Below, one piece after another: positions 25,701 to 44,235 of a stretch of 64,000 bases of DNA. A program made the translations under genes and the position numbers. Origin of the DNA: Acidaminococcaceae bacterium (GTDB taxonomy: Bacteria > Bacillota > Negativicutes > Acidaminococcales > Acidaminococcaceae); the NCBI GenBank assembly GCA_944390935.1, contig CALXRU010000003.1:1-64000 (forward strand). The letters run 5' to 3'. Numbering within the stretch: position 1 is the stretch's first letter; each line of letters opens with the position of its first letter. A model generated the notes under the pieces. The model ran no database searches. It saw only the letters and a list, made by a program, of their open reading frames with translations, and had not been told where the DNA came from.

Positions 25701-28700
25701 GCATAATCAATAACCTTTGCTTCGCCATCAATACCTACACCGCCGTTAGCAGCGTTAAGAGTAATATTGTTAGCAGTTACGTTAGGCGTTTCAACCGTCA
25801 GTACATCTTTACCAGGTTCAGCATTCAATACGCTGTCCTGAATTGCATACAACAGTTGGTTCTTGCTCCAACCGTAGTTGCTTTCATCAACGTCAACCTC
25901 AGCATAAGAGCTGATAAGCTGCTGTTCTTCAGCAGTAAAGCTATCGCCATAAACTTCAGCTTGCGCAGCAAGATACTCATTAGTGATAACTTCATATTGC
26001 GCCTGATACTTTTCGCCAATAGCAGCAATTTCCGCATCACTCGCACCGGCTGCTTCAGCCGCTGCAACTTCAGCACTATAAGCTGCCGAAGCTTCTTTGT
26101 AGGAATTAAGATAGGTATCTTTAGCTGCCTGCAAATCAGCGTTATTAGCAAAGGCATCAGCTAATTTTCCGGCAGCGTCTTTGTAGTTGCCAACAGTGTC
26201 AGCCTTGCTATTATCAAATACATATTGAGTAGCTGCCGCTGTATCATTGTCAGCTATAAAGTTCTGCTCTGTTTCATTAAAGCCAGTTCCGGCAAAGTAA
26301 TTATCAACAACTTGCTGATATTCCGCATTGGCTGCTGCGATTGCCTCCTGGTTATCACCGGCTTCAAGCAAAGCATCCTGCAATTTCTGCTGAGCTGCAA
26401 CTATGGTTTCATCTTTAGCAAAAGCATCGGCTGCTTCCTGATATTTTTCTACTGCCGGCTTAATAACATCGTCATAAATTGCATCATATGCAAGTGCATC
26501 AGCTTTGCTATCCAAAGCTTCCATGCGTTCTTCTTTGGCTTCTTTAGCTGCGTTTGCACTGCTATTAGCATCATCTTGAGCACTGATCAACCCTGCTTCA
26601 ATCCAGCGGTCAATCTTATCCTGCGCGCTGCTGTTGTCATTATTTTCGCTCGGGTGTGCGTCCACAAAGCTGCCGTTATTAACCGTCAGCACTGCGTCGC
26701 CGTCCTCGCTTACAATCGTGCCAAGGCGCATATTGCCGTCAACCTGCGTCAGCACAATGTCGCCCTTCGCCTGTGCGTTAACGCTGCTTGCCATGGTGTC
26801 GCTGCTGTAAAGCTCGCTGCCGCCAAGAACCCTAAACGCATTAACAACGGTTCCGTCATCATTCAGCGCACCGATATTGCCGGTGTTGCTGATAAGGTCA
26901 ATGCGCTGGCCTTTAACTGCATAGTCGCCATTTACTACATATGCTGCGTCAATAAGGTTGCCCTGTGCTTCAAGGTATACGCTGCCGGTTGTAGCATCAA
27001 TAGCATTTATTCCGCCGGTAACAGCCTGCTCAACGTTCAAATCGCCGCCGGCAGATACAAACTTAATATCGCCGCTATCCGTTGCAATGTTGATATTTGC
27101 GCTGTTGCCAATTGCAGAATGGTTTACATTTACGCCAGTTGCAGCTCTAATATTAACATCGTCGGAATTGATGTTGGCACTGCCGATTGCACTTACAGAA
27201 CCATTGTTGCTGGTAAGATTTACGCTGCCCTTGCCTTCAAAATCGTTATTATCATTTACAACTGTTGCGTTACTGATATTGCCGTTAAGCAGCATATCCT
27301 TACCAGAGTTTACTGTAATATCTCCGTTGCCTTCGCCGTTGCCAAGGAAACCAATCTGAATGGTGTTATCGGCCTTAATGCCAGTAGTAGAAGCCATCTG
27401 ATCGCCAGTAGTTTCAGTCCAGGTGTAAGTATACTCGCCGTAACCAAAAATCTTGCCTGCCACACCATCGTATTTCTTCTTAACAGTCGGGTCCGTTGCT
27501 TTTACTTCTTCTTGATTTTGAGGATTAGTATATGTCCAGTCAATCCTGAACATATTGCCGCCGCCTTTATAACCGTCGGTAATCAGCGAACCGTCCTTCA
27601 TCGGTGTAGGATCTTCGGAACTACCACTTGAAATTACGGTACCTTCAACATCTACGCCAATTTGTTCGAGATGGTCGAGCAATGCTTCGCTTGTATTGTA
27701 AGACAATGCACCCCAGAACAGGAAATCTTCAGTGTAATGTTTTTCTCTAATAACTTCGCCGCTTGCGCCGCCTGTCCAGGCAAACTGGGTACCTTCAACC
27801 GGTTTGTAAGCATCTTTAACACCGGTTTGCCATGCAATGCTGCTGGCATCAGTACCATATGCGTATTCGCGCCACTGTCCGTTTTTATATTCGGTTACCC
27901 AGCCGTCAACCTTTTTACCAGCACTATCCTCGGTTACATTTTTATCAGTAATACTGATAAGACCGGTTATATCGTTAACGGTAATGCTGTTAACTTTTAC
28001 GTCTTTATCAACAGCTGCGGTGTTAATATTTACATTACTGGTACCGTCCATCGCCATAATGCGCCCGCCACCGGTGCTTGATACCTTGCCGCTGATTTGG
28101 ATATTGCCGCCTTCAGGCCTTACGCTTTCGGTAATAAGCTGGCCGGTAGAAGGATTATAATAAACCTTAACTTCGTAATCCCAAACATGGGTATCGGTAT
28201 TATATACTTCACCGCCTCCGTTAATCAGATATTTGCTATTGCCAAGCACATCATTATCGGTAAGCACAACCTTGTTTGCCTGCCATTCCTTATCAAGATC
28301 TTCAACTTTGGCATTATCATCAGCAGTTAACTTGGTAGAATAAGCACCATAACCGCTCTGAATCAACCCGCCGATATTTACGTTTACGGCATCAATATAT
28401 ATGTTGCCACCTGCCAAAATCCCGGCAGATTCTTCACTTATTGTTGCATTAAGCGTAGCAGCATTATATTTATAGCCTATGCCAAGCTCATTTAAATATG
28501 ATACATAAGCGTTAAAGCCCTCTGTCTTTTTCTCTTCCATGAAGGTATTTGCTGCTGTATTAGATAAACCCTCTTTCTGTGCAACAGCACTAAGCACTTC
28601 ATTCCATGTTTTAGTATACCCAGTAATATTATTAACATCACCGGCATAACCAAGTTCGCTAAGCGTAATTCCAACTGTATTAATAAGCCAGTCTAAATAA

Positions 28701-31700
28701 GCGGTATAATCTTTAAATTCTTTAGAGCCATCCTGTTTCAGGCTATGCAGGTATTTCTGTATTTTTTCGGCTACCGCTTCGCTAAACTGCAATTTAGTAA
28801 TCGGATCGTTGCCTACGTTCAATACACCGCTGCTGCTTTGCTGCGTTACGTTGCCTCTGGTTGCAGTAATTTGAATATTTCGCCCGCTTACATTACCATC
28901 AACTAAAATGCTATAGTTATCGTTAATAATTTTAACATCGCCAGCGGTATTGGTAATATCGCCAAAAATGCCAATATCTGCCTGCGGGTGCTGGTTGCCA
29001 TATTGTGTAAACTGGCTTTCATCACCGCTTCCACCATGAATTGTAATCGTCGGCGTGTTTGCACTGGTACCATCTTCTTGCCACTTACCAGTAAATGTTT
29101 TATTACCGGTTAAGTAAACATTGCCGCCGTTATCACTAATAGTTACATCCTGTACCTTTAAATACAGGTCGCTGTTATTAGTAATGGAAATCTGCGGTGC
29201 GCCCTGCGCGGTAATTTCGCCACTGCCTTTTAGCGTATCGGTTTCTAGGTTAATATTGCCGCCAGATACTACAATGTCAGGCAGGCTGATAGCAGGAACA
29301 TCAATATAATCCAGCGGTACAATGTTATTATTTCCATCACGTTCTGCAAGGCCTGCTTTCAACATTTCAGTAAGCAGCAGGTTCTTTTCTTTCTCATAAG
29401 CTTCATACGCTTCAGAACCTTCTGCATAAGCAGCTAAGTATTCCATTACCTGATTGTAGCGTTCCATTAAGCCGTTAACCACTACCAGATTATCAGGTGT
29501 AATCTGATTCTTATTAAACCAATCTGTTTCTTCACCATCATCAACGGTAATGATTACATCTTTATAGCTTACGTCGCCCTTGTCAACAAGTACTTCCTCC
29601 ATTACGGGATTGCCCTCATCATCAAGAACCGGCTTGCCATCAGAACCAATCAAAGGTCTTTCTTCATATGTAGGTTGAGCAGCAGTACTTGAATGCCCGT
29701 CAATAGTAATATCCAGCTTGTTGTGAACGCCTGCTTTAGCCGTACCGGTTACATTAATGTAGTTATCAGCAGTTTCGTTTTTAATCTGGTCACCAAGCGC
29801 AGTAGAAGCTACATTGCCTTCGCCGCCTGTACCAGTCCAAACTTTGTATTCTTTAGCCGATTCGGTAACGGTAGTAAAACCTTTAGCCGCACTGGCATTA
29901 ATATGGCGTACGCTTTCTGCGTTGCCAGCCAGTTCAATCTGGTTGCTTTGCGTCATGCTGTTGTTAACGGTCGGGTCGGTATAAACCGGTATAGCCGTTT
30001 TGTTGTAAGCATCTGCAAGCACCTGCAGGTTAAGGCTCGATTTAGTTCCGTTAGCATCCGCACCGGCGTACAGGTTAATATCTTTTGTGCTTAACAAATC
30101 GCTGTCAGCGTCAATGTTAATTTTGTTGCCGCGGTTAAATGCGTTGCTTGCTTCGGCGGAAGCCGCACCGGCCACGCCGCCCTGGGTATCGGCAATGGTT
30201 TCCAGCTCAACATCAGTGTCGTCCGTTGCTGCAAGGGTAATATCAGCGTCAGCTTTATCTGTTGTCAAATCGGAATTTACAACATTTACTCTGTTGTCAT
30301 AATCAATAGCATGGTCGCTGAACGCCAGCGCAACAGGAATTACGCCTGCAGATTTAAGGCTGTTTTTGGTTGTGATGTTGCCCTGGGTGTTGGCAAAAGC
30401 AGTAATGCTGCCGCCGTCGCCCGCGCCGTGCAGGGTGCTTTCTTTAATATCAACACCAGCACTAAAATCAAGGTCGTCGCTGTAATCGGTTGCATTTACG
30501 TTAATGCCGCCGTAGCCGCTGCCGTTAATTGTGCCGTTGTAATCAACAGTATTCTGTGCCGTGTAGTTTTGCGCGCCGCCGGTTGTAATAGTTGCGCCAT
30601 CAACAGTTACGTTTGCTGCATTGTTAATGGTGTTAGCAAGCCATGTTCCACTGCCGCCGATAACTGCCGCGCGTACAGCGTCGGAAACAAGGTCAATATC
30701 CATGCCGTTAACGGCCTGCGCCGTGAAACTGCCTGCAGTGTTCCAATCTCCGCCGATTTTAACATCCGTATCGGCAGTATAGTTGTTATTAACCTTAGCC
30801 GCATACGGGCTTACATCGGCAATGGCGCCGCCATAGCCGTTAGCGTCGGTATCTACTTTAGCATAGCTGCTTGCATTAAGGTCTACATTATTAATTTCGC
30901 TGTCTTCGCTCGGGCCGTCAACCTGTACCTGTGTACTGAGCTGGGCAGAACTGTCAGCAATATTGGTGCCACTTGCAAAAACAGTAGAAACGCTGATTCC
31001 GCTTGCATTAACCTTCTGGTCAACACTATTAACGCCGCTGATATCCAAATCAATGCCATTTGCAGCTGCTTCCGTATCGCTGCCCTTAAATACGTTGTTG
31101 GCAACATTTACTTCAACATCACTGTAAACTTCCGCACCGCCGGTATTAGCCTGCAAGGCTCCGTTCGGCAGCAAGGAAGCGCTAAGGCTTAAGCCCTCCA
31201 TCTTAACATTCTGTGCTGCATCGGCTCTTGCTTCCGCCGTCAAACTTTTAGCGGTAAAGCTGTTGCCTTCAGTAATATTTACAAAAGTTTTAAGATGGCC
31301 ATTATCTTCTTTATTTTCATTTTCTTTATCTTCAGGTTCGATATGTTTACCGATATTGGCTTCGGCAACAGTAATCGCGCCGGAGGCAACCATGCTGGCA
31401 CTAAGCGAACCGGTCGTTGCACTTACAGAAGGAGCATTAAGCGCGGTAATATTAATTACCTTACCTGCCGTAAAGTTGCTGCCACCCATAACCGTTACAC
31501 CAACTTTGCCAAGTTCATCGGCAGTTGCAGCAACACCTGCACTGGCAAACATTAAGCCGCCGCTGGCTGCTTTAGCGCTTACGCTAAGGCTGTCAACCTT
31601 GTTGCCTTTTTCGTCTTTCGCCTGACGTTCAGCGTGAATATCAATATCTTCACCGGCGTTAATGTCTGTATCATTTACATTAATATTGGTTGAGCTGTCG

Positions 31701-34700
31701 TTGCTGCCCTGCGCGACAATTACGCTTGCCGCACCGCCGCCTGCTAAAGTAACGCCAATTGCATTAACAGCAGTTTTGCTTTCGTCATTAGCGTTAATAT
31801 CAACTTTGCCACCAATGTCAAACTCACTATCTTTTACGCTAATGTTGTTTACACCGCTTGAAGAAGCAGAACCGTAAGCCGCACCGATAGAAGCCTTTCC
31901 GCCAACATTGCCCTGATAAATATCAAGTTCGGAAGCGCCTTTTTGTGTTGTGCTTACAGCCAAATCTTGGGCAGTAATCTTTGTATTATTGCTAATATTT
32001 ACAACACTATTGCGGTTTACATCCAAAATGCCAACCGTACCGCTTGCACTTATATACGCCCCGCCGGAAGCCTGAACGGCATCCATGGTTACATTGGTAT
32101 CGGCAACAGCTTCTGCCGTTACTTTATTACCGGCATTAAGATTTGAATTATTAATTTTAACTTCAACTACCGAAGCATTATCAGCACCTTTTTCTGCCGT
32201 TACTTCAGGCACATCATTAACTTTAACGCCATAAGTGTAATCATCTTTAAGTTTATTGCCTGCAACTGCTTTATTGGCTTCGTCAAAAATGGTATTGGTA
32301 TTAATGCCGCTGCCATCCTCAACTTTACCGTTGTCATCAGTTTGCAAGCCGGAGCCATAGCTGTCGGCAACCGCGCTGCCAACATTGGTAATCATTACGT
32401 TAGCGCCGCCTGCAACCGCACCGGCACCGGCATTAACTGCCTCTTGTTTTACCTTGCGGGTTTCATTAGCGGTTACATTAATATCGTTAGCAGCGTTAAG
32501 TTCGGCATCATCAACAGTAGTAGTTACCCGACTGTCAATAGTATTAACAGCCACGCCTACACCTACGCCAACTGCACCACCAGCGCCGCTGCCGGACGTA
32601 TTAGTAAAGTCAATGGTATTTTCCGCACCAATGTTGATATCATCGGCTTCACTGCCATTCATAGCAACATTGGCAACATTAGTATTAACTTTGCTGTTTA
32701 CGTTGGAAACGCCGATTGCACCGGCAACGCCTGCCAGCGCGCCACCAACGCTGTAAAGCTGGTAATTAACTTTAGTGGTATTGGCCGCCGTAATATTAAT
32801 ATTATTATCGCTGCTTTCAGCATTATTAATCGTAATATCACTGCTGCTTACATCAGCGGTAGTTATACTGTCTTCGTTAAGCACACTTACGCCAACACCA
32901 ACGCCAGCGCCCAACCCGCCAGCACCTAAAACAGTACCCATGGTGTTAAGCTTACCGGTATGGTTTGCCGTAACATTCATGCTGCTTGCAGTAATATTGG
33001 CATTATTAACTTTGGCAGTAGTTTTGCCGTTAAGCAAAGCCACGCTGGTAGCGTTGGAAACACCAGCACCAATGCCTGCACCGGCCGCGCTTACCGTCAG
33101 CGAGGAAATGCCCTGTTTGGCTTCGGCTTCAACATTAAAACCTGCCGCGTTAATTGTATTTTTATTATTTCCGTCTTTGCCGGATACTTCTGCCGTTACC
33201 TCACGGCTTACAGTATTGGTATCGCTGCCAAGGCCTACGCCTGCGCCCGTGCCTGCAATGCTGGCCGTACCAACCATGCCTGCACTGTTAGTATAATCAT
33301 GCGCAATAACATTTACATCACTTGCAGTACCGGCAGTATTAATATCCGCACCGGTAATAGCAGCTTTGGTGCTGCCGCCAATCTGGTTTACGTTAACAGT
33401 ACCGTTAACAGCTGCACCGGTACCGGCCACGCCGCCGTTAATAATAAAGGATTTTATAGCGTGCGTGGAAGAAGCCGAAACTGCAACGCCTTTATATTCA
33501 CTTTCAATACGGACATCGCCGAGCGTATTTTGCGAATCGAAAGTATTTTTATCAACAACATTATCTAAAATCGAATTGTCATCAACGGAATCTTTAACTT
33601 TAAGAGCATAGCCTTTGCCGGAGGCGCTTACGGAAGTAGTATCTCCGTCAATGATTGCCGTGGTGTTGCCGGTAAGCTCGTTATAGCTTACGGAAAGACC
33701 AACAGCTGCACCTGTACCTGCAACAGAAGCCTGACCGGCATAGTTGGCAATCTGTTCATCGCTGGTTCCTACAACGCCTATGCTGCCATCAGCAACAATG
33801 TTTGCACCGCTGCCGATATGCGCGATTACATCGTTTTGTATCATGTTAACGGCTACGCTGCCGGTTACGCCTGCACCGCTGCCTGCTACGCCAATACCAA
33901 CACCGATATTGGTAATTTGCGGCGTTGCGTTGGCGTTAACGGTAAGGTTGTTAACATTCATTGTGCCGCCGTTTACCGCAGCATTGGTCTGCTGGATAAT
34001 ACGGTTAACGGCAATGCCTGCACCGACGCCTGCACCGCTGCCTGCTGCCGCCGCAACATCGGCGGAGCTGGTAATTTCGCTGTCGTTCTGTGCTTCAACG
34101 GTTACGTTGGCAGAAGTGCCACCGTTTTCATCAATATTTGTATCTGTAATTTCTGCACTTGTAGTTTTGTTAATCAGCGTTGTTGCCGATGCGCCCTGTA
34201 CAGCCACATTACCGGCACCGCCAACGCCGATTGCCACGTTGATTACTTGCGCTTCGTCTTTGGCTTTAACTTCAACCGTGCTGCCTGCACCGTCAGCATT
34301 AATAGTGCTGTTATTAATTTCAGCCGTTACATACTGGCCGTTATCAGGATTTGTAGATACATCGCCGATTTCCGTATAGGCAACGCCTGCGCCTGCTGCC
34401 ACTTTACCGCCGATATTTATGCCACCAATTACGGAAAGAATATCGGTATCGTCAACAGCGCTTGCCGTTACTTTTTTAGCATTATTGATTTCAACAGCAT
34501 CCATAACAGCACCGGCAGTGCCTTTGGTTTGGGTTACAACAACAGTACCGCTTACAGATGCCGTGCCGCCTGCCGAAACGCCTGCGCCAATGTTATAGCT
34601 GTCGCTGGTGTTGTTTGCTTCAGCAGTTACGCTTGTTCCTGCATCCTTAGTACGTTCATCAAATTCTGTACCCGTAATATTAACATTTGTACTGTTATCA

Positions 34701-37700
34701 AGCCCGACATAACTAAGCGTTGCACCAACAGCCGCTTTGCCAGCGCCGCTGATTTGCCCGCCTACGGAAACTATCTGTGCTGTATTATTTGCTTTGGCAG
34801 TGGTTGACTGCGCATTAACAGTTGAATTAAAAATATCTACATTTGCTGTATTTACAACATCGTTCCAGCTTACGCTGCCTACACCGCTGCCTTTACTTGC
34901 AGCTGCAATACCGCCTGCAACAGTAACAATGTTGCTGTTGCTGCCTGCATCGGCCGAAATAGTTTCTGCAGTAATATCAGCATAGTCAATTTTAGCTGTA
35001 TAGGTATTTTCAATATCTGTAATAGCAACAGCCGCGCCGCCTGCGCCTTTATTGGTAGAACCAGCCAGGCCTGCAGCTACTGTAATAATGCTGCTGCCGC
35101 CATCTTTATTAAGGTTTACTGTTTCTTTTTCTTCATTATCCTGTTTGTTTTTATTAAGTTCGTTTACAGCATCGCTCATATCAATGCTGTTTAATTCGTT
35201 GCTGCCGGTAATGTCAAAATCTTCACCCATACGGTTTTTAATTTCTGCTTCGCCATCAGCAAGTTCATTAAGTGCTTGTTCGTAATCAGCGATTTTGGTT
35301 TCACTGCCTTCGTTATCATTGACTTCATTAAGAAGACTTGCGTCAATAGCGACATCCTGAGCTACTACATTTACACTGCCGCCGTCAACGGTCCTGATAA
35401 CAACTTTATTGTCTTTGCTGCCTTCAATAAAAGCATTAGTAGTATTATGTACTTCGTTATAAACGCCGGCGCCTTCCACAGTTGCCCCAGTGCCGCTGCC
35501 AGACGCAACACTTAACCCTGCCGCAACACCAACTGTAATATTTTTAAGTGCGTTCAGTGCGTCAACTTCTATACTTCCAACATTAGTGTAGCTGCCGCCT
35601 TTAATACCAGCACTGATATTATTATTAAGCATTGCTACGCCTACACTCGCGCCAATGCCTACCTTTTGCTGGCCTGCGCTTAAGCTGCCGCCGCCGGTAT
35701 TTTCAATATCGCGCGCATAAGCAGCTACGTTAATATCACCTGTATCTTGCACAGTATTATTTTCATGCAAAGCTTCAACATCGTGGTCAATTAAATTTAC
35801 CGAAACAGCCGCATTACCGCTGTAACCACTGGTATTGCCGCTTTTGGCAACATTTAACCCAAGCCCCAGTGCAAGTTGTTCGCCGCCGCTTAAAGCCATG
35901 GTATTAAGCTCACCAGCATTTGTAATGGCAGTGTTTTTAATTACTGCATTTACTTTATTGGTAATATCGTTAACACCTGCTGCGCCGGAAAAACCAACTG
36001 ATTTATCACTGGCAGAACCGCCGCTTTTCCACTGCAATGCCGCTGCACCGCTATAAGCTCCTGCATAAGCAGTGTCGCGTGCCGTAACGTTAACATCGCC
36101 TTTACCATTCATAGTTATTTTAGCATTATCAACAATAGCCTGGGTTGCATTATCAAGCATATTCATTGATACACTGCCGCTGCCAGCTATGCTGAAGGAA
36201 GGCATAAAACCGCCTTTGCCGCTTGATTCGTTGTTAATTTTTATGCCGCCGTTACCGCCATGAGTATTTTTACCCATGTTGAAAAAGTTGTTGGCTTTGC
36301 CGGATTCTGTACCAAAAATATTTCCGGTTACAGTATCAAGTTTACCACCGTCGCCAAGCAGACTGTTTTCAAGTTTACGGATACCGCCTTTAATTCTACC
36401 GAAGAAGCTTGTTTCACCGGTATCGTCATTTTTACTTGCAGAAGCAGCGACACTTACGCTCTGAATACTGCCTTCTGTCGCAGCATCTACATTAAACCCA
36501 TAAGCACTGATGCTTCCATCATCAGCTTTAGGATTAGTATAATCATTACTTACTTTATCTATAACATATCTAACGGCATCTTCTCCGTTTTCGTCAGTAT
36601 AATGTTCTTCAATTGTATACAAAGCCTTTATCTGCTCAGATATATCGGTCACACCGGCAATATTTTTAACCGCAAAATCGTTATAAGCAAGGCCCATACC
36701 TATAGCGCCGCTGCCGCTGCCCAGATTGAGGCCTGCTGCAACGTTGACGATATTGGTATTATTATGCCCGCTGATACTGATATTGCTTGTTTTAGTCTCT
36801 TCTGTACTGCCGTCTTCAACTGTTTCAGTATACTGTTTTGGTTCTGCCGTTAAGCTTGCGCCGTCATCAACAACAGTTAAAATATCGCTGCTGCCGTTAA
36901 CCAAACTAATCATGCCATTTAAAATAACGTTATTGGAGGCAGTTTCATCGCTCGGACCCATGCCTGCACCGCCAGCTACGGATACATGGTCAATTTCATT
37001 GCTGCCGGCAATATTAATATCACCGCCGTTGATACTTGCGCCGTCATTAACCGCAACAATGGTGTCGGTATTAAAATCAGAATAGTTAACAGTTGCGCCA
37101 ATGCTGGCAACTGTACCGCCGCCGGAATTTGTCAAAGGCACAGTATTAAGCCCGCCAAGGTTTACGTCCTTCATGTAATTTTCAGCATTAAGGTTAACTT
37201 TACCGTTACTGTTAATTTCACTATTACTGCCAATTTCTACCTTGCTTACGGAATCAATAGTATTTACCATAACGGTACCTGCGCCGTTAATCGCAGAAGG
37301 ATGATGCCCTGCAATATCACTTGTATCGCCGCTGCTGCCCTTGGAAGCACTGGCTGCTGCAAAATTGCCGTAACTGTTGGGGTCAGCAAAAGCAAGCGCA
37401 CCGGTAAGTATGTCACTGGCGCCTTGTATTTTTGCTTTAACGTCTGCTGCAACTTGCCCGCCTTCGTTTCCATCCAGCATAGTATTTAATTTATTTAACG
37501 CAGTCAGAACTTTAAGCCCTGCTGTTACCGCTTCGCTAATTTTAAGTACACCGCTGTCACTGGTGGCAAGTGTTTCATCAGCAGTTTTAAAGGCACTTTC
37601 CCAAGCACCAATTTGTTTATCAAGATTGTCTAAAAATTTGTCAAAATCGCTTTTTATTGCACCGTCAAGCCCGATGACTGCATTTCTAATCTGCGCAGCC

Positions 37701-40189
37701 GCGTCTTCAACGTCCTGAATCATGTTTTTTATGCGGTTATATTCAAAACGTGTAGAAGCATTTATATCAACGCCATCAGTCGCACTAATAGTTGCTTTAT
37801 GTTCTGTTCCGGCTTCATCAGTTACAGCATCTTCAACCACTACGGAAGAAGAATTATCCATATTATTTACAAGCACAGCCGCATTAAGTGTTGCTTCAGC
37901 AGGGTAATCGTCGTTGTAGGAAGCAGTTGTTCCCGTAGCTGTAATGTGCGCGTCGTCAATTTTGGTCAGCGCATCAATAGCCATTTTACCGCCAGCATTA
38001 AGGCTGGCGTTTTCGCCGATAGTTACATTACTGCCGTGCTTCTGTCCACTATAGGTTACTGTCGCACCGGCTTTAAAGATTTCACTTAATTGTAATCCCT
38101 TTATAGTTTCATCTGTACTTGATAATTTCTCCCCAAGCTTGCTGCTAATTTGCCCTGCAAGTGTGCCAATCCATTCTTTAACTTCGCCCTTTTTCTGTTC
38201 AACATGCCCTGTAACAATCTGACTGGCGGCAGACATATATTTGCCACTGCCTATTGTGCTTTCTGCATTAACATTATCGTCAGTAATGATATTTTCAGCA
38301 TTCACGTTCAAATTGTTGACAGCGCTTAAATTAGTATCAATATTTACATTTGCATTGCTGTTAAAGTCGGTAACATTAACAGCAACTGCCATAGCCGAAG
38401 CTTCAGGCGCTTTAAGAGAGGTACGGGATGTAAAATCGCTGGTAGCATCAGCGTTTACGTTTAAATCTTTGCCTGCTGCGATTTCATTATCTGTGCCGTT
38501 AATTGTTACATTCGCACTATTATCTGCATTGGCAACTGTTACGCCAACAACAAACTGGTTAGCCTCTTTGCCCATCAGGCTCATTTTGTTTTCGGCTTCA
38601 ACCTTCATATCAGCATCAGCATCAATACTGATATCTTTAGCGGCATTTACATTGCCTGCGACAGTAACATTTGCTTTATTGTCAACATCTGTATAAACAA
38701 CTGCCACGGCAGGAACATTAGCACCAGTCGTCCCACCGGCTGTTTTAAATTTTAAGCCTAATGTTGAAGCAGCAGAAGCAGCAAGTGTTTCAGCCTTGGC
38801 ATCAATATCAACATCACCACTTGTACTTTCTACACTGCCAGCAGAAGTAACATTAACATTAGCTTCCGTACCCAGGACGGAATAAGCAGCATCGCCTGCC
38901 AGCGGAGTTCCTGAACTTACAGCAAGCTTTAAGCCATTAATAAAACCACCGCTGTTATCAATATAACGGTTAACGGCTTCTGCCTTAACTGTTACGTCAT
39001 CAACAGCTTTTACAGTCCCACCAATATTAACATCTGCTTTAACTTTAGCCAACTGGGCAACATCATTATTATTAAGTTTATAATCTTTTATAGTTTCATC
39101 ATAATCCGCATTACTATTAATTGCGGTTGCGCTAATATTAATATCACCTTTTTTATCAACAGTTTCAGCACCGGTTTCAACAGTACCGTAAACATCTACT
39201 GAAGCATCAAATTCCTGTTCGATAAAATTGTTTTCTACAGCCTCCGCAATAGACCCAAGTGTCGCACCAACAACCGGTAATTCTTCCAATTTATTTGTTT
39301 TATTTGCACTGTCAACATATGCAGAAAGCACAATATCGCCGCTGCCGGTTTGTTCTACCTTCATTGCAACACCAGTTAAGCCTGCGTCTACACCGCCTTT
39401 GCCATCAGTTCCGTCAATATTTACAATGTTACTAAAATCAGTAATACCGGTTTTAATATAAGCATCTTTTACAATAGCGTCAGCTACTACATCACCAATC
39501 GCACTTTCAGTATTATTTTTGCCAACAGCAATTTTAGCCGCACGCATTTGCACTTCGTTGGTAGCGTTTACCTGGCCGAGCACGGTGATGGTGCCGCTGG
39601 TATTGACAGGAATTGTCTGCCATGCGTTTGCATCTGTTGTAATATTTGTAATATGAGCAAGGTTTTCTTCTGCGGTACCAGCATCAGCAGTTCCGCCCAC
39701 AGTCGTTATGCTATCCATAAACCCAGCCGTCGGCGTCATAACATACAGCGAACCGGTATTGATAACACCGGATTTACCGACAGCCATGCCGTCTTGGCTT
39801 AAGAAGAACAGATTGCCGCCGATTTGGTTGTTTTGAATTGCATTAACAGTACCGTTAATATCAATACGGTCATTTACAAAGTTAACCAAGTTTGCTCTAT
39901 CGGCGCCATCAGGAACTTTAGTATTAAAATACATATTGGCAATATCATTCGCGCTAAGATTAAAATCTTTAAACACGTTAATAGCCGCATTATCTACTAC
40001 TCTATCAGCCCAAATGTTAGTAACATTGCCAATAGTTTCTATTGTTCCATTATTGCCGTTAACTTTATTGATAGAAGTTGCAAAGCCAACAACAGGTTGC
40101 ATAATAAAGCCGGCCGCCGTTACGGCAGAGATGATTTTCTGGCTTAAGGTATATTTACTTTTGCGGTTAAATTTTCTCTTGCTGCTCAT
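22775..40189 (-). CDS. Giant filamentous adhesin (TpsA, LktA/FHA-like), 5,804 residues
   Basis: An unbroken 17.4-kb frame encoding a two-partner secretion exoprotein. Residues 1 to about 37 form an extended signal (basic MSSKRKFNRKSKYTLSQK, hydrophobic core, end GFA). Residues about 40-190 look like the TPS haemagglutination domain needed for recognition by TpsB (GGNLFFLSQDGMAVGKSGVINTGSLYVM). The bulk is parallel beta-helix sequence. It includes a long array of units of about 70 residues with a Gly/Ala-rich core of the form AGSGAGVGAGIAVN, densest near residues 1700-2750, and later short 'DGNI-VSTANGSITTGG' rungs. Four charged, probably helical inserts lie near 806-935, 3574-3618, 3800-3905 and 4520-4790. 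There is no autotransporter barrel or sortase motif; the C-terminus is aromatic and acidic. The closest known type is the LktA-family adhesins of fusobacteria and Negativicutes. GGGAGG precedes the ATG. Confidence 0.92.
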   Translation of the reverse strand: MSSKRKFNRKSKYTLSQKIISAVTAAGFIMQPVVGFATSINKVNGNNGTIETIGNVTNIWADRVVDNAAINVFKDFNLSANDIANMYFNTKVPDGADRANLVNFVNDRIDINGTVNAIQNNQIGGNLFFLSQDGMAVGKSGVINTGSLYVMTPTAGFMDSITTVGGTADAGTAEENLAHITNITTDANAWQTIPVNTSGTITVLGQVNATNEVQMRAAKIAVGKNNTESAIGDVVADAIVKDAYIKTGITDFSNIVNIDGTDGKGGVDAGLTGVAMKVEQTGSGDIVLSAYVDSANKTNKLEELPVVGATLGSIAEAVENNFIEQEFDASVDVYGTVETGAETVDKKGDINISATAINSNADYDETIKDYKLNNNDVAQLAKVKADVNIGGTVKAVDDVTVKAEAVNRYIDNSGGFINGLKLAVSSGTPLAGDAAYSVLGTEANVNVTSAGSVESTSGDVDIDAKAETLAASAASTLGLKFKTAGGTTGANVPAVAVVYTDVDNKANVTVAGNVNAAKDISIDADADMKVEAENKMSLMGKEANQFVVGVTVANADNSANVTINGTDNEIAAGKDLNVNADATSDFTSRTSLKAPEASAMAVAVNVTDFNSNANVNIDTNLSAVNNLNVNAENIITDDNVNAESTIGSGKYMSAASQIVTGHVEQKKGEVKEWIGTLAGQISSKLGEKLSSTDETIKGLQLSEIFKAGATVTYSGQKHGSNVTIGENASLNAGGKMAIDALTKIDDAHITATGTTASYNDDYPAEATLNAAVLVNNMDNSSSVVVEDAVTDEAGTEHKATISATDGVDINASTRFEYNRIKNMIQDVEDAAAQIRNAVIGLDGAIKSDFDKFLDNLDKQIGAWESAFKTADETLATSDSGVLKISEAVTAGLKVLTALNKLNTMLDGNEGGQVAADVKAKIQGASDILTGALAFADPNSYGNFAAASASKGSSGDTSDIAGHHPSAINGAGTVMVNTIDSVSKVEIGSNSEINSNGKVNLNAENYMKDVNLGGLNTVPLTNSGGGTVASIGATVNYSDFNTDTIVAVNDGASINGGDINIAGSNEIDHVSVAGGAGMGPSDETASNNVILNGMISLVNGSSDILTVVDDGASLTAEPKQYTETVEDGSTEETKTSNISISGHNNTNIVNVAAGLNLGSGSGAIGMGLAYNDFAVKNIAGVTDISEQIKALYTIEEHYTDENGEDAVRYVIDKVSNDYTNPKADDGSISAYGFNVDAATEGSIQSVSVAASASKNDDTGETSFFGRIKGGIRKLENSLLGDGGKLDTVTGNIFGTESGKANNFFNMGKNTHGGNGGIKINNESSGKGGFMPSFSIAGSGSVSMNMLDNATQAIVDNAKITMNGKGDVNVTARDTAYAGAYSGAAALQWKSGGSASDKSVGFSGAAGVNDITNKVNAVIKNTAITNAGELNTMALSGGEQLALGLGLNVAKSGNTSGYSGNAAVSVNLIDHDVEALHENNTVQDTGDINVAAYARDIENTGGGSLSAGQQKVGIGASVGVAMLNNNISAGIKGGSYTNVGSIEVDALNALKNITVGVAAGLSVASGSGTGATVEGAGVYNEVHNTTNAFIEGSKDNKVVIRTVDGGSVNVVAQDVAIDASLLNEVNDNEGSETKIADYEQALNELADGEAEIKNRMGEDFDITGSNELNSIDMSDAVNELNKNKQDNEEKETVNLNKDGGSSIITVAAGLAGSTNKGAGGAAVAITDIENTYTAKIDYADITAETISADAGSNSNIVTVAGGIAAASKGSGVGSVSWNDVVNTANVDIFNSTVNAQSTTAKANNTAQIVSVGGQISGAGKAAVGATLSYVGLDNSTNVNITGTEFDERTKDAGTSVTAEANNTSDSYNIGAGVSAGGTASVSGTVVVTQTKGTAGAVMDAVEINNAKKVTASAVDDTDILSVIGGINIGGKVAAGAGVAYTEIGDVSTNPDNGQYVTAEINNSTINADGAGSTVEVKAKDEAQVINVAIGVGGAGNVAVQGASATTLINKTTSAEITDTNIDENGGTSANVTVEAQNDSEITSSADVAAAAGSGAGVGAGIAVNRIIQQTNAAVNGGTMNVNNLTVNANATPQITNIGVGIGVAGSGAGVTGSVAVNMIQNDVIAHIGSGANIVADGSIGVVGTSDEQIANYAGQASVAGTGAAVGLSVSYNELTGNTTAIIDGDTTSVSASGKGYALKVKDSVDDNSILDNVVDKNTFDSQNTLGDVRIESEYKGVAVSASSTHAIKSFIINGGVAGTGAAVNGTVNVNQIGGSTKAAITGADINTAGTASDVNVIAHDYTNSAGMVGTASIAGTGAGVGLGSDTNTVSREVTAEVSGKDGNNKNTINAAGFNVEAEAKQGISSLTVSAAGAGIGAGVSNATSVALLNGKTTAKVNNANITASSMNVTANHTGKLNTMGTVLGAGGLGAGVGVGVSVLNEDSITTADVSSSDITINNAESSDNNINITAANTTKVNYQLYSVGGALAGVAGAIGVSNVNSKVNTNVANVAMNGSEADDINIGAENTIDFTNTSGSGAGGAVGVGVGVAVNTIDSRVTTTVDDAELNAANDINVTANETRKVKQEAVNAGAGAVAGGANVMITNVGSAVADSYGSGLQTDDNGKVEDGSGINTNTIFDEANKAVAGNKLKDDYTYGVKVNDVPEVTAEKGADNASVVEVKINNSNLNAGNKVTAEAVADTNVTMDAVQASGGAYISASGTVGILDVNRNSVVNISNNTKITAQDLAVSTTQKGASELDIYQGNVGGKASIGAAYGSASSSGVNNISVKDSEFDIGGKVDINANDESKTAVNAIGVTLAGGGAASVIVAQGSNDSSTNINVNDTDINAGEDIDIHAERQAKDEKGNKVDSLSVSAKAASGGLMFASAGVAATADELGKVGVTVMGGSNFTAGKVINITALNAPSVSATTGSLSASMVASGAITVAEANIGKHIEPEDKENENKEDNGHLKTFVNITEGNSFTAKSLTAEARADAAQNVKMEGLSLSASLLPNGALQANTGGAEVYSDVEVNVANNVFKGSDTEAAANGIDLDISGVNSVDQKVNASGISVSTVFASGTNIADSSAQLSTQVQVDGPSEDSEINNVDLNASSYAKVDTDANGYGGAIADVSPYAAKVNNNYTADTDVKIGGDWNTAGSFTAQAVNGMDIDLVSDAVRAAVIGGSGTWLANTINNAANVTVDGATITTGGAQNYTAQNTVDYNGTINGSGYGGINVNATDYSDDLDFSAGVDIKESTLHGAGDGGSITAFANTQGNITTKNSLKSAGVIPVALAFSDHAIDYDNRVNVVNSDLTTDKADADITLAATDDTDVELETIADTQGGVAGAASAEASNAFNRGNKINIDADSDLLSTKDINLYAGADANGTKSSLNLQVLADAYNKTAIPVYTDPTVNNSMTQSNQIELAGNAESVRHINASAAKGFTTVTESAKEYKVWTGTGGEGNVASTALGDQIKNETADNYINVTGTAKAGVHNKLDITIDGHSSTAAQPTYEERPLIGSDGKPVLDDEGNPVMEEVLVDKGDVSYKDVIITVDDGEETDWFNKNQITPDNLVVVNGLMERYNQVMEYLAAYAEGSEAYEAYEKEKNLLLTEMLKAGLAERDGNNNIVPLDYIDVPAISLPDIVVSGGNINLETDTLKGSGEITAQGAPQISITNNSDLYLKVQDVTISDNGGNVYLTGNKTFTGKWQEDGTSANTPTITIHGGSGDESQFTQYGNQHPQADIGIFGDITNTAGDVKIINDNYSILVDGNVSGRNIQITATRGNVTQQSSSGVLNVGNDPITKLQFSEAVAEKIQKYLHSLKQDGSKEFKDYTAYLDWLINTVGITLSELGYAGDVNNITGYTKTWNEVLSAVAQKEGLSNTAANTFMEEKKTEGFNAYVSYLNELGIGYKYNAATLNATISEESAGILAGGNIYIDAVNVNIGGLIQSGYGAYSTKLTADDNAKVEDLDKEWQANKVVLTDNDVLGNSKYLINGGGEVYNTDTHVWDYEVKVYYNPSTGQLITESVRPEGGNIQISGKVSSTGGGRIMAMDGTSNVNINTAAVDKDVKVNSITVNDITGLISITDKNVTEDSAGKKVDGWVTEYKNGQWREYAYGTDASSIAWQTGVKDAYKPVEGTQFAWTGGASGEVIREKHYTEDFLFWGALSYNTSEALLDHLEQIGVDVEGTVISSGSSEDPTPMKDGSLITDGYKGGGNMFRIDWTYTNPQNQEEVKATDPTVKKKYDGVAGKIFGYGEYTYTWTETTGDQMASTTGIKADNTIQIGFLGNGEGNGDITVNSGKDMLLNGNISNATVVNDNNDFEGKGSVNLTSNNGSVSAIGSANINSDDVNIRAATGVNVNHSAIGNSANINIATDSGDIKFVSAGGDLNVEQAVTGGINAIDATTGSVYLEAQGNLIDAAYVVNGDYAVKGQRIDLISNTGNIGALNDDGTVVNAFRVLGGSELYSSDTMASSVNAQAKGDIVLTQVDGNMRLGTIVSEDGDAVLTVNNGSFVDAHPSENNDNSSAQDKIDRWIEAGLISAQDDANSSANAAKEAKEERMEALDSKADALAYDAIYDDVIKPAVEKYQEAADAFAKDETIVAAQQKLQDALLEAGDNQEAIAAANAEYQQVVDNYFAGTGFNETEQNFIADNDTAAATQYVFDNSKADTVGNYKDAAGKLADAFANNADLQAAKDTYLNSYKEASAAYSAEVAAAEAAGASDAEIAAIGEKYQAQYEVITNEYLAAQAEVYGDSFTAEEQQLISSYAEVDVDESNYGWSKNQLLYAIQDSVLNAEPGKDVLTVETPNVTANNITLNAANGGVGIDGEAKVIDYANLNDEANLKLLAQAKAGDLTWHEDTKQVEIRQQQAITVSVKKQDDNSYGKVNVTGRDNVYLAGVKDTQLNITGVDTDGNIRLQGDEGINVSGMLSGEDLTLTGGSGDIMGNDVINDVGYIKTDVTGNVYANADGDINIHHIGGTDDAGDIVDLKLLAISTNKVANLKAKNSILMYTDPNTEAQGRINADIVNLTAGGSIGKADNAVRIINDGAVVNADAEKGIYLSGEGSNGELVLGTIEGASLAVDSVSSVSIGKDAAEDEEAVEGNIKVDGDVSLSADAGSVTEADNSVITANNVNALATGNILLGSEANKVDSFVVNGLGADNSLNGSVELAGSKDSGFAADLNGITVNNGGVTVTNYAENGTLNISGGSVKTTDAEKGSVTFSSEGSITADTTVNSAADIVMDADGAITNNGALTAQNNVNVNTTEGAIEIGGSVTATDNDVNITTGSGAISTTGAISGGTNVKVDAGTTGTIDLGGDVTAEGGDVDVTTDDGYIKTTGAVTANNDVNVDTLNGLINLGGLVDAETGFVNVSTANGSITTGGYVSGHKDVMLNSDGGDITVGGYTESETQNVTATVKGDGNISFAGTVSANGDVEAEVTGEGNITTGTGAEVSGTDISFTTYEGNITTGSDLTADKNVDLNVNTGNITFGGDVTANDGNITIDIEHDGYLKDAEGMDNTLAAYGPEGSETAGNIIITTGGAGDVDLYDLYATNAARIDIADGSLTLHEINGELVAMQLRTEGKDMNVENIVAGTQIVLTGSDMTLDQISQRPDADGMLVITPDNAEADKPIDNFTIGDIKTNSDSGIRFDRLWVNNSDIHISEGQLWFDKLYVEDNAHFSNDEMTAAIYGKPPLRDGSDSVYWINTEENRPESSLDMWLNGTGDWMYLRFTDDHIQESNGILLTLDEYDYVYDQRFTAEDHLRWQHGRYLDEDWKQAYGYGLSLHDRYGLIDYQNFTEENAGEDEIAVEA

Positions 40190-40204: not shown

Positions 40205-41875
40205 TTAAAACTGACCGTTAAGCATAAAGTGTATGCGGGTCTTATCTACTTCTTCGCCGTTAATGTCACGCATCAGCGGTACGCCGAGCGTTAAGCTTGT
40301 ATATATCTTGCGGTCGATAGTGCTTTTAATGCCCACGCCGGTGCCTGCCAGCACATGGTCGTCAAAAGCGCTGTCGCCGTAAACTGCACCGTAGTCAAAA
40401 AAGCAAAATGCCGATGTAGTTCTGGCTTTATCCAGCGGCACGCTGTATTCCAAACTTGCACTGTAGCCGCTGTCGCCGCCAAGGAAGCTTTCCTCGTAGC
40501 CGCGCACGCTGTACATGCCGCCAATGTAAAACTGTTCGGCGCTCAGCAGGTAGTCGTCCGCGCTCCACTGCGCGTCAAGCCTTGCGCTTAACATCTGCCC
40601 GGCATTGTACATTTTTTGCCAGAAGCCGTTAAAAAAGTATTTGGTAAAATTGTCCGTTTCGCCGTCAATGGTTTCGCCGTCGCCGAAGCGGATATTATGT
40701 TTTTGGTAAATTAAGCTGCTTGTGCCGTAGTTTGTCATGCTGAAGCCTGCGGTGTAGCTTTTTACCGTGTCATCCACCCAGTGGATGCCCAAAAAATCGG
40801 TCTGCGAATTCTGGTAGCCGTAATCCAAAGTTGCTTCCGTACGCAGGGTATCCGTAACCACCAGCGGCTGAATAAGCGAAACTCCATATGCATTGGAATG
40901 GCCTTTAATGTCCAAATCTTCCAGTTCGCCATCCGTAATTTTTACGCTGTTGGTGCTGTAAGTAATGCCCAGTTTGGTTCCGCTGCGCCCGACGGGCACG
41001 GTGTACATGGCGCTGAACGATTTTGTTCCGTCGCTGCGCATGCCGCTCATCGTCAGCATATCGCGCCTGCCGGTTAAGCTGCGGTCGGTCCAGAACAGGC
41101 CTTCGCGCCATTCGCCGCTTGATTCGCTGCCGGCGTTATCTACATATACGTTTACATAATTTTTTTGCGGCTCATAAGCCGAGATAACATAATCCGTCGT
41201 GCCGGGTTCTTCGCCCGCGTGCATGGTTATGCGCAGCTGCACGTCGTTGGTGGCGTTAAAACGCAGCAGGTCGTCGTTCAAATCGTTGACGTTGTTAATT
41301 TCGCCGCGGTTTAAGCCGATGCGCCCGGCTATGTAATCCTCGCGCGTGCTGTCGTTGCCCGCGATATGGACGTTGCCGGTTTTGCCTTCGATAATTTTAA
41401 GTTCTACCACGCCGCCTTTAATGGTTTGCGGCGGCAGGTAAGCGCGGCAGGTTAAGTAGCCTTTCTGCTGGTACAAATCGTTAATTTTGTTTACGATGTC
41501 GTACAGGTTTTGCAGCGTAATTTCCTGCCCGATATATTGAGAGGTTATGGCGCTTATTTCTTCCGCCGTCAGCACCTTGCTTTGTTCGATTTTAATATCG
41601 TTAAGCACAAATTTAACGGTGCTTTCGGCTGCCTGCTGGTCCTGTGCCGCTTCGCCTTCAACCTCGGCGCGCTGTTTGGCGCGGTCTTCGGCAATCTGGC
41701 GGGCAACGCGCTGGCGTTCCATGTATTCGCGCGTGCGGTTAAGCTGCACGCCCGGGTCATTGGTGCCGTACTGCGGCGGCGGGTTGTTAACGTCATAAGC
41801 ATAAGCCGCCGGTGCGGTGATAATGCCTGCCAGCAACAGGCCGGTAATTATTTTTGCAACTTTTCTGGTAGCCAT
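40205..41875 (-). CDS. TpsB outer-membrane transporter (FhaC/ShlB-like)
   Basis: A 556-residue two-partner secretion translocator. A Sec signal peptide (cut near AAYAYD, residue 26) is followed by a charged linker and helix, a POTRA region (about 88-240, including LNDIKIEQSKVL and GYLTCRAYLPPQ) and a 16-strand-type barrel. The barrel's lid-loop motif is VRGYEE (Val457-Tyr460), invariant in this family, and the last residue is Phe, as in BamA-inserted barrels. It should secrete the 5,804-residue protein encoded 15 bases downstream. The gene proves that the organism has an outer membrane. Confidence 0.94.
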   Translation of the reverse strand: MATRKVAKIITGLLLAGIITAPAAYAYDVNNPPPQYGTNDPGVQLNRTREYMERQRVARQIAEDRAKQRAEVEGEAAQDQQAAESTVKFVLNDIKIEQSKVLTAEEISAITSQYIGQEITLQNLYDIVNKINDLYQQKGYLTCRAYLPPQTIKGGVVELKIIEGKTGNVHIAGNDSTREDYIAGRIGLNRGEINNVNDLNDDLLRFNATNDVQLRITMHAGEEPGTTDYVISAYEPQKNYVNVYVDNAGSESSGEWREGLFWTDRSLTGRRDMLTMSGMRSDGTKSFSAMYTVPVGRSGTKLGITYSTNSVKITDGELEDLDIKGHSNAYGVSLIQPLVVTDTLRTEATLDYGYQNSQTDFLGIHWVDDTVKSYTAGFSMTNYGTSSLIYQKHNIRFGDGETIDGETDNFTKYFFNGFWQKMYNAGQMLSARLDAQWSADDYLLSAEQFYIGGMYSVRGYEESFLGGDSGYSASLEYSVPLDKARTTSAFCFFDYGAVYGDSAFDDHVLAGTGVGIKSTIDRKIYTSLTLGVPLMRDINGEEVDKTRIHFMLNGQF

Positions 41876-41977
41876 AGCCGTACCTCTTTTCTATCAGTTT
41901 TACTGATTTAGCAATTTAATTTTTTGCGTAGCAATCCATTATTATTCATATTAATTTTAGCATATTTGCTTTTGACA

Positions 41978-42002
41978 AAGTGCAAATGTTTTATTTGCAC
42001 TT
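41978..42002. promoter_or_regulatory. Perfect inverted repeat between divergent tpsB and regulator genes
   Basis: AAGTGCAAAT (41978-41987) and ATTTGCACTT (41993-42002) form a 10-bp perfect palindrome with a five-base centre. It lies in the 235-base divergent gap, overlapping a plus-strand TTGACA (41972-41977) and TTGCAC/TTGTCA-like -35 candidates on the minus strand. There is no T-run, so an operator is more likely than a terminator. The natural candidate binder is the OmpR-type regulator encoded at 42110. Confidence 0.6.
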
Positions 42003-42109
42003 TTATGGCGTAACAATTGTTTACAAAATTAAACAAAATGTATTAAACTATATATGAAATGATTTATTTGCATTGTTTTGGATTTTGATTATAAACAGGG
42101 AGTTAAAAC

Positions 42110-42823
42110 ATGAACAACGTCATTGCCCTTACCAATGACAGCAAAATATTTAGCGATTTATTTTATTACAGCACTTTGTACGGCTACCGTTTTAAAATTA
42201 CCGGCAGCACGGAGGAAGCACTGGCATATTTTGTGCAGCAGCGCACGTCTTTATTTGTGGTGGATTGCTCCGACACGGAGCAGCGCTTTTTAAAATTTGC
42301 GCGCCAGCTCGCGCCCGGTCTTGCCGTGATGGCAATATGTGGCGGGGGGGTGGACGAAGAACCTGCCATACAGGCTTTTAAAAACGGAGCGGACAGCGTT
42401 TTGCGTTTGCCCTGCGGCAGCCGCGAATTTTATTACCGCCTGCGCAATTTTTTGAGGCTGCTTAATTTAAACACCGGTCAGGAAAGCGTGCAGTTTATCA
42501 CGCTGGGGCCGCTTAAAATTTACCCGCAGAACAACCAGGTAATACTTGGCGACGATTTTGTGCCGCTGACATCGACGGAGTTTAAACTGCTGATGCTGTT
42601 TATTAACAAGCTTAACCAGCAGGTAAGCCTTGAAGAATTATACCGGCTGATGTACGAAACGGACGAACTGCAATACACCAGCCGTGTGCTGGGCGTACAC
42701 ATCAGCAAACTGCGGCGCAAACTTAAACTGGCAGACATAGAGGAACTTGATTTGAAAAATATCCACGGCAAGGGCTATTGCCTAACCTATACGGGCGGCA
42801 ACCGGAACGGAGATGACTTATGA
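42110..42823 (+). CDS. OmpR-type winged-helix regulator with degenerate receiver
   Basis: A 237-residue protein with a receiver-like N-domain (about 1-118) and a Trans_reg_C winged helix (about 130-228; LTSTEFKLLMLFI, VSLEELYRLMY, VLGVHISKLRRKL, IHGKGYCL). A possible phospho-acceptor Asp52 lies in FVVDCSD. The second acidic residue of the N-terminal pair is missing and the usual Lys-Pro is replaced by LRLPCG, so normal phosphotransfer is doubtful. GGGAG precedes the ATG. It is divergent from tpsB and overlaps the next gene by ATGA. It carries a run of seven G at 42344-42350 within codons 77-81. A role in adhesin control is inferred from position. Confidence 0.82.
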   Translation: MNNVIALTNDSKIFSDLFYYSTLYGYRFKITGSTEEALAYFVQQRTSLFVVDCSDTEQRFLKFARQLAPGLAVMAICGGGVDEEPAIQAFKNGADSVLRLPCGSREFYYRLRNFLRLLNLNTGQESVQFITLGPLKIYPQNNQVILGDDFVPLTSTEFKLLMLFINKLNQQVSLEELYRLMYETDELQYTSRVLGVHISKLRRKLKLADIEELDLKNIHGKGYCLTYTGGNRNGDDL

Positions 42824-44187
42824 AACAGAGCGAATTTTGTAAAAAAGCACAACAAAACGCCATAGCTGTTTTAAAAGCCTATTTTGTTGAAAGCAATATG
42901 GAAAAAGCGCTGAGCTATTTTTCCAAGGATTGCAGCAGCTGGATTGGCTGTGGTGAAAACGAGCTTTACCTTAATTACCCGGACGTTTTTAATACCTTTA
43001 CCCGCCGCACCGGCGAGATACTGCGCCACACGATGGACGATACCAACAGCTGCGTTTTGTTTGACGGCGGCAGTTTCTGCATGGTGCTTGTAACCGCAAC
43101 CATTACGCCTGCACCGCAGACCGGCACTTATTTTAAGGAAACCGGCCGCTTTACCTTTGCCTTCCGCAGTGAAGACGGCGAGCCCAAAGTTGTGCAGCTT
43201 CATTCATCTGCCCCGTGGCATAAATTGCAGGTTGGCGAGCTTTACCCGCAGGAGGAAGGCAGCAAGGCGTTTTTTAAAATGGAACAGCAGCTTGACGGCA
43301 GCAACCTGCCTGCCTTTACCGCGGCCAACACGCCCAACGGCTTAAAATGCTGCCTGGTGGATAAGGACTACCCCGCCGTGTATATTAACAAGGCGCTTTA
43401 TAAACTAGCGGGTTACAACAGCATGACGGAAATGCTGACGGCTACCCACGGCGAAATGAAAAACATGGTTTACGCCGCCGATTTGCCGAAGCTGAAAAAA
43501 GTTATGGCAACGCACTGCGGCAGCGAGCCTTACACCATTAACTACCGCCTGCTGCGCAAGGACGGCACCGCAGTATGGGTGCTGGAACGCGGGCAGTTTA
43601 CGCCGACGGACGGCGACGATGATTACTTTATCTGCACCATTGCCCCGCTGATGCAGGAGCAGGACAGCTTTAACTACGGCACGCTCGTCAATTACGACGA
43701 TATCGCCAGCGCGCAGATACCGATGGATTTGTATTTTAAGGCCGCGCTGGATATTATCGAGCAGAACGACAAGCAGACGGCGATGGAAAAACTGATGAAG
43801 CTGTGCTGCAGCATGGCGCAGATAAGCGGCGCGTTTATTAAGGATATCCGCCGCAGCGGCGAATTTATGCCCGTTGTTGCCAAATATTTTAACGGCAGCG
43901 ACGAGTTTACCAGCCTTTTGAAATGCACGCCGGAGGACATTGTAAACCGCTTTAACAGCCAGGGGCTGAACCAGTGCAGTAACACCGTGCTTTTGCCGAA
44001 GGTTTACAAGGACAAGCTGGACGCGCTTGACGTTAAGGCGTATTTAAGCAAAACCATCCGCACCGGCGGCAGCGACAGTTACGTTTTAACCTTTGTAAGC
44101 CTTGGCACGCCGCACAACTGGACGGACAGCGATAAGGATTTTATTACGCAGACGGCAAGGCTTCTGGCGCTGCTGCTTGATAAATAA
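42820..44187 (+). CDS. PAS-domain sensory protein without kinase domain
   Basis: A 455-residue soluble protein, no membrane segments. The N-terminal ~150 residues resemble an NTF2/SnoaL-like fold (AVLKAYFVESNMEKALSYFSKDCSSWIGCGENE). Next comes a PAS domain, about 165-280 (AVYINKALYKLAGYNSMTEML, YRLLRKDGTAVWVLERGQF). The C-terminal ~150 residues look GAF-like (MEKLMKLCCSMAQISGAFI, ending FITQTARLLALLLDK). No histidine kinase, GGDEF, EAL, cyclase or DNA-binding output is present. Its start overlaps the regulator gene, so the two are made together and may act as a sensor-regulator pair by protein contact. A bidirectional terminator follows. Confidence 0.75.
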   Translation: MKQSEFCKKAQQNAIAVLKAYFVESNMEKALSYFSKDCSSWIGCGENELYLNYPDVFNTFTRRTGEILRHTMDDTNSCVLFDGGSFCMVLVTATITPAPQTGTYFKETGRFTFAFRSEDGEPKVVQLHSSAPWHKLQVGELYPQEEGSKAFFKMEQQLDGSNLPAFTAANTPNGLKCCLVDKDYPAVYINKALYKLAGYNSMTEMLTATHGEMKNMVYAADLPKLKKVMATHCGSEPYTINYRLLRKDGTAVWVLERGQFTPTDGDDDYFICTIAPLMQEQDSFNYGTLVNYDDIASAQIPMDLYFKAALDIIEQNDKQTAMEKLMKLCCSMAQISGAFIKDIRRSGEFMPVVAKYFNGSDEFTSLLKCTPEDIVNRFNSQGLNQCSNTVLLPKVYKDKLDALDVKAYLSKTIRTGGSDSYVLTFVSLGTPHNWTDSDKDFITQTARLLALLLDK

Positions 44188-44201: not shown

Positions 44202-44235
44202 AAAAATCCCACGGAACAAATCCGTGGGATTTTTT
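44202..44235. terminator. Bidirectional terminator
   Basis: An 11-bp perfect stem (44205-44215 with 44221-44231) with A- and T-runs on the two sides. It separates the regulator pair from the convergent metQ. Confidence 0.85.

Follow-up and report, generated by a model that had tools for sequence, protein, structure and literature searches.

At the locus studied here, a gene for an OmpR-type protein with a degenerate receiver (gene A) is coupled to a gene for a PAS protein that has no kinase (gene B), and the pair faces an adhesin operon. This raises the question of how such a regulator is controlled, and of which genes it acts on. A sequence-only reading of the window, i.e. the whole 64,000-nucleotide stretch of DNA that was analysed, had proposed a signal pathway that works by direct contact and without phosphotransfer.

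Arrangement and conservation of the locus

The open reading frames of both genes, their translational coupling and their divergence from tpsB were exactly as that reading had claimed. The main features of the locus are as follows.

22775 to 40189, minus strand: tpsA-type giant adhesin open reading frame of 5804 aa downstream of tpsB, assigned from adjacency and an N-terminus common to relatives
40205 to 41875, minus strand: tpsB, two-partner secretion transporter (ShlB/POTRA_2; Pfam), divergent from gene A
42020 to 42049, plus strand: promoter-like TTTACA-N18-TAAACT of gene A; conserved, with a consensus match that is not above chance alone
42110 to 42823, plus strand: gene A, OmpR/PhoB-type transcription factor with a pseudo-receiver, 237 aa (open reading frame, Pfam, AlphaFold2, Foldseek)
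42820 to 44187, plus strand: gene B, SnoaL_3-PAS_3-GAF protein without an output domain, 455 aa (open reading frame, Pfam, junction sequence)
44202 to 44234, no strand assigned: terminator-like hairpin after B, between B and a convergent lipoprotein gene (sequence)

The stop codon of A and the start codon of B overlap in the ATGA at 42820-42823, and GGAG is present upstream of B. In two relatives the gene downstream of the lipoprotein gene has an ATPase-like start (MERLIIKKLLAWKNSKYRKPLILKGVRQVGKTW; L027:10654-12006 and L029:747-2099), which was not seen at that place in the window.

We place the host in Phascolarctobacterium, because a search of genome contigs returned close relatives of B from named records of this genus only. 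The order A-B-tpsB-tpsA was conserved in all six Phascolarctobacterium genomes (6/6), with B overlapping or abutting A in each of them. A search for co-occurrence of the pair, the neighbourhood check suggested earlier, thus recovered it in 6/6 genomes of the genus and also in three genomes of another genus, which runs against the refuting outcome named earlier, a pair that does not co-occur elsewhere. In the other genus, two genomes (G031 and G070) have the order B-A-B without an adjoining tpsB; in the third genome (G071) the order is A-B, at the edge of a contig and again without an adjacent tpsB. The opposite case was found in G026, a genome of yet another genus, in which an A protein only about 40% identical faces tpsB-tpsA and no match to B was detected anywhere in the genome. 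The associations of A with tpsB and of A with B are therefore each conserved, and neither is absolute. Purifying selection acts on A as well as on B (dN/dS 0.02-0.28) and the layout is genus-wide, so the arrangement is more than chance. When 380 genomes of the class were searched, full-length B was recovered from this genus and from the three B-carrying genomes of the other genus only, and a plasmid search gave no homologue beyond one PAS match.

Some local irregularities were recorded. The metagenome assembly G004 has frame breaks in both A and B (L029:3282-5382, G004:C128), and its B contains a short tandem duplication in which SKDCSSW occurs twice; decay and assembly error are indistinguishable in this case. 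In the genus of G031, G070 and G071, a small protein that begins like a prepilin (RRLGKRGTAIVEYAIILAF) and belongs to no Pfam family is encoded downstream of the A/B cluster (L026:10991-11626, L100:2037-2699). A Flp/Tad pilin reading of the downstream gene in G031 and G071 was dropped, as it had no Pfam support and the gene apparently has a separate promoter behind a hairpin.

A degenerate receiver and a putative sensor without output

Two domains were delimited in the gene A product.

42110 to 42460, plus strand: pseudo-receiver domain, residues 1-117 (alignment with canonical regulators; (beta-alpha)5 in the model)
42560 to 42784, plus strand: winged-helix DNA-binding domain, residues 151-225 (PF00486)

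Trans_reg_C was the sole domain of this protein above the Pfam cut-off (E 2.8e-14). Response_reg gave no match in the window protein and matched 6 of 8 relatives, at best with E 0.02. The AlphaFold2 model (pLDDT 81) consisted of a five-strand, five-helix (beta-alpha)5 receiver and an OmpR-type winged helix, and Foldseek matched it to KdpE with E 4e-13, other matches being PrrA, RpaA, CosR, RitR, PmrA, HP1043 and GlnR. We read the catalytic pentad by alignment against canonical regulators from the same genus. The acidic pair is replaced by T8 and N9, the Thr by C77 and the Lys by L100, such that four of the five catalytic residues are lost, as the claim of an incomplete phosphorylation site had implied, and only the acceptor, Asp52, remains. 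Asp52 was retained in the proteins of the window, G002 and G005; the acceptor position is E in G001, G003 and G026 and Q in G031, G070 and G071, and the Lys position is L or I in all relatives.

The genome contains five OmpR-type genes. For each of the four others a HATPase gene lies no more than about 2 kb away, and A is the sole one without an adjoining HATPase gene. The HATPase matches examined were all paired or non-kinase, and none was an unpaired kinase; from their sequences, the match nearest A (C3:71821) has a receiver gene of its own beside it, and a further match is GyrB. A receiver fold, residue loss and no adjacent kinase (a trait that is typical of the group, not required) place A among the pseudo-receiver OmpR/PhoB regulators, and A also counts as a pseudo-receiver by the criteria given in PMC12632262. 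The marks of a canonical two-component system, i.e. a conserved acceptor Asp accompanied by the acidic pair, T/S and Lys, and an adjacent HisKA/HATPase gene, were not found.

Phosphotransfer through A is very unlikely, because the acceptor varies among D, E and Q, the Lys has become L or I in relatives and no unpaired kinase was present among the matches examined. The earlier claim that the pathway dispenses with phosphotransfer agrees with these results. A slow receiver that is still phosphorylated at Asp52, by a kinase encoded elsewhere or by a small phosphodonor, would explain why three of the proteins keep this residue, and such chemistry is regarded as possible in PMC12632262. However, we consider this highly improbable given the E or Q at the acceptor of six relatives, the lost or disrupted Lys and acidic pair, and the lack of an unpaired kinase among the matches examined.

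The product of gene B has the following domains.

42880 to 43215, plus strand: SnoaL_3 (NTF2-like) domain, residues 21-132 (PF13474, E 2e-5; 9/9 relatives)
43378 to 43638, plus strand: PAS_3 domain, residues 187-273 (PF08447, E 5.9e-11; 9/9 relatives)
43702 to 44184, plus strand: GAF-fold domain, residues 295-455 (VIA-align; weak Pfam match in one relative)

The scores were 42.9 bits for PF08447 and 25.4 bits for PF13474, against curated cut-offs of 25.6 and 22, respectively. Comparison of the C-terminus of B with a phytochrome-type GAF domain by VIA-align yielded a Z of 17.9 and an rmsd of 2.7 over 157 residues, which we take as a likeness of fold, not of function or bilin binding. Pfam GAF was absent from the window protein and reached E 0.0064 in 1/9 relatives. 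Because the B model was weak (pLDDT 57.7), its structural reading was confined to the GAF part, and the SnoaL and PAS assignments rest on sequence. The label PAS/GAF-like given to B earlier was thus appropriate for the PAS domain by Pfam and for the GAF domain by fold, but it had overlooked the N-terminal SnoaL_3 domain. B also matched designed beta-propellers (Pizza proteins), but these matches were rejected, as they span the linker and the PAS edge and no stretch passes alone. Residue 44 of B (42949-42951) is Cys in SSWIGCG and Trp in the aligned relatives of the genus (SSWIGWG).

No HisKA, HATPase, GGDEF, EAL or DNA-binding domain was detected by Pfam in the window B protein or in 9 relatives, which bears out the claim that B has neither kinase nor other output. 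The SnoaL_3-PAS_3 order is also present on a hybrid histidine kinase in G006, and a protein in G145 that, from its sequence, resembles the front of B directly precedes a GGDEF protein. Since this front occurs with kinase or GGDEF outputs, B resembles the sensory portion of signalling proteins of that type, minus the output. SnoaL-like plus PAS front ends of this kind, on hybrid histidine kinases or before GGDEF genes, were seen in Negativicutes at L230:2761-6684, L229:1027-4329 and L237:1300-2373. No paper combining SnoaL with PAS signalling was found in a literature coverage that was incomplete.

A palindrome at tpsB and at other type V secretion genes

The intergenic region between tpsB and A contains two elements, of which the palindrome is an addition to the sequence-only reading.

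41954 to 41962, minus strand: extended -10 TGCTAAAAT of tpsB, invariant in 6 genomes and at fixed spacing
41977 to 42003, no strand assigned: perfect palindrome AAAGTGCAAAT-GTTTT-ATTTGCACTTT, a putative operator, conserved in 6 genomes and recurring before type V genes

The two arms are separated by 5 bases, and the core motif is TGCAAAT-N5-ATTTGCA. An 11-base perfect arm pair had a P of 0.0036 in Markov sequences of the same composition. The palindrome is near-symmetric in six genomes while its flanks diverge, and in G002 both arms are altered together, GTGC having become TTGC and GCAC having become GCAA. On the tpsB side, the invariant extended -10 (TGNTAAAAT) begins 18 bases past the 19-bp core. 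The promoter-proximal half-site ATTTGC is followed 22 bases on by TAAAAT, and this spacing (ATTTGC-N22-TAAAAT/TATAAT) was found at tpsB in five genomes of the genus and in G026, where the single ATTTGC of the region is separated by exactly 22 bases from the perfect TATAAT that follows it. Because the half-site is 22 bases upstream of the -10, the geometry is consistent with a class II activator. The full palindrome was absent from G026 and G031, both of which carry A, and the ATTTGC-N22-(-10) element was not found upstream of the pilin-like gene or nadE in G031/G071.

In pattern searches, on which the palindrome statistics rest, matches with 0-2 mismatches were almost confined to this genus, while other genera were at about control level. 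The genus-specific TGCAAAN7TTTGCA upstream of two-partner secretion/autotransporter genes was observed at 41977-42003 of the window and at eight further sites (C8:58405, C3:49877, C5:20162 and C16:16098 of G005; G000:C22:19; G002:C25:29169; G003:C15:405; G004:C77:5808). Apart from copies at contig ends, all those in intergenic DNA are located in front of a type V or autotransporter-like gene. The site was found before tpsB1 in all genomes of the genus, before the second tpsB of G005, and before autotransporter(-like) genes on G000:C22, G002:C25, G003:C15, G004:C77 and the G005 contigs C16, C3 and C5. The upstream regions of these loci are mostly unrelated and have little beyond the ~25-bp site in common, with the exception of one pair that has 203 bp in common. 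The autotransporter-like gene on G005 C3 carries TGTTATAAT offset by 18 bases, as is the tpsB -10; the -10 spacing is absent at tpsB2, the rpsI-adjacent autotransporter, G005:C16 and G000:C22. Most autotransporter genes of the genus are without the site, as is the second tpsB of G001. Matches within coding regions (L146, L147, L151, L097) were treated as chance because their cores are unrelated.

The G005:C16 and G000:C22 copies resemble terminators with T-runs, and an extended GC stem plus T-run on several copies (L143, L145, L150) is what would be expected if the palindrome were an RNA hairpin or a dispersed terminator instead of an operator. This explanation is improbable, as the focal palindrome lies between divergent promoters, where there is no transcript to terminate, and no T-run follows the tpsB2, C3b and rpsI-adjacent copies.

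OmpR/PhoB proteins usually bind direct repeats, and ChxR reportedly does so as well; a perfect dyad is hence atypical for A. The dyad would better fit a symmetric dimer than the tandem binding of this family, and only one of the many palindrome loci is beside A. These observations would be accounted for if the palindrome were the operator of an unlinked regulator, with A/B neighbouring one copy and perhaps regulating something else. We think this unlikely, since no regulator gene other than A was seen linked to a palindrome site and the half-site and spacing persist at the tpsB of G026, where A is also present.

The G026 genome, with A facing tpsB and the half-site and -10 spacing kept, has no B; B is therefore not obligatory for whatever A does. 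A may act alone on tpsBA, as a pseudo-receiver that is constitutive or controlled by dose or by redox/ligand, while B, co-transcribed with it, would be an accessory that serves a different function. RitR and JadR1 are atypical regulators controlled without a partner protein, according to PMC12632262. Sole action of A is a possibility that we nevertheless regard as doubtful, because B is kept overlapping or abutting A throughout the genus, is duplicated around A in another genus, and is itself subject to purifying selection.

Proposed mechanism and known systems

Our best explanation, to which as a whole we give an even chance, is that A is a non-phosphorylated regulator of a type V adhesin regulon and that B tunes A by contact. 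A would be a pseudo-receiver transcription factor of the OmpR family that works without Asp phosphorylation and controls the divergent tpsB-tpsA operon via the palindrome TGCAAAT-N5-ATTTGCA; a small type V secretion regulon is probably also under its control via the same palindrome. B, whose translation is coupled to that of A, would be a soluble SnoaL-PAS-GAF sensor that, when ligand-bound, most likely adjusts dimerisation or DNA binding of A through direct contact. Control of tpsB by A is moderately supported; the link to the adhesin operon, already drawn from the sequence alone, was strengthened by the synteny and by the promoter element common to type V genes. A may bind the palindrome as its operator and would activate rather than repress, and B is predicted to have one or more ligands and to contact A. 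More tentatively, a two-component pair may have lost its chemistry in both halves, with the kinase-less B binding and gating an A protein that commands a dispersed adhesin regulon. If so, the pair would form a dedicated signalling system that works by protein contact and derives from a phosphorelay.

The A/B locus provides a case in which the control of a "dead" receiver is directly testable, because it offers a conserved, co-translated candidate partner, natural variants with and without this partner, a D/E/Q acceptor, and a putative operator with candidate targets. It would also be the first candidate surface-adhesin regulon in the gut genus Phascolarctobacterium, for which our limited literature coverage returned no paper on surface-adhesin regulation.

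In NifL-NifA and other pairs of a PAS sensor and a transcription factor, a PAS protein from the same operon gates the factor by contact, without phosphotransfer. The domain composition of these pairs is unrelated to that of B and A, NifA being an AAA+ activator and A an OmpR-type protein, and for B and A we infer the contact. The G006 and G145 proteins share the SnoaL_3-PAS_3 order with B, but have HisKA-HATPase-receiver or GGDEF outputs, either in the protein itself or next to it, whereas B ends in a GAF fold and has none.

The atypical OmpR/PhoB regulators HP1043/HsrA, CosR, ChxR, RitR and GlnR resemble A in having a receiver fold without phosphorylation residues, a winged helix and no partner kinase. 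Unlike them, A has a coupled kinase-less sensor gene and a site at an adhesin operon. The available part of PMC12632262 describes no kinase-less sensor partner for such regulators. Within limited literature coverage, we found no described case of a pseudo-receiver with a PAS or kinase-less SnoaL-PAS-GAF partner, nor of a pseudo-receiver/PAS pair in an adhesin context. CmrRST of Clostridioides difficile likewise combines an OmpR-family regulator of the atypical kind with signalling partners in one operon, but a sensor kinase is among these, as is a response regulator of the normal type, whereas the A/B locus is without a kinase (PMC12548384 and PMC12632262). Phosphorylation-independent OmpR-type regulators are established (PMC12632262 and studies reviewed there). 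Since pseudo-receivers as such are well known, the novelty that the sequence-only reading had seen in the whole build is narrower than it proposed, and what is new is limited to the pairing and the regulon.
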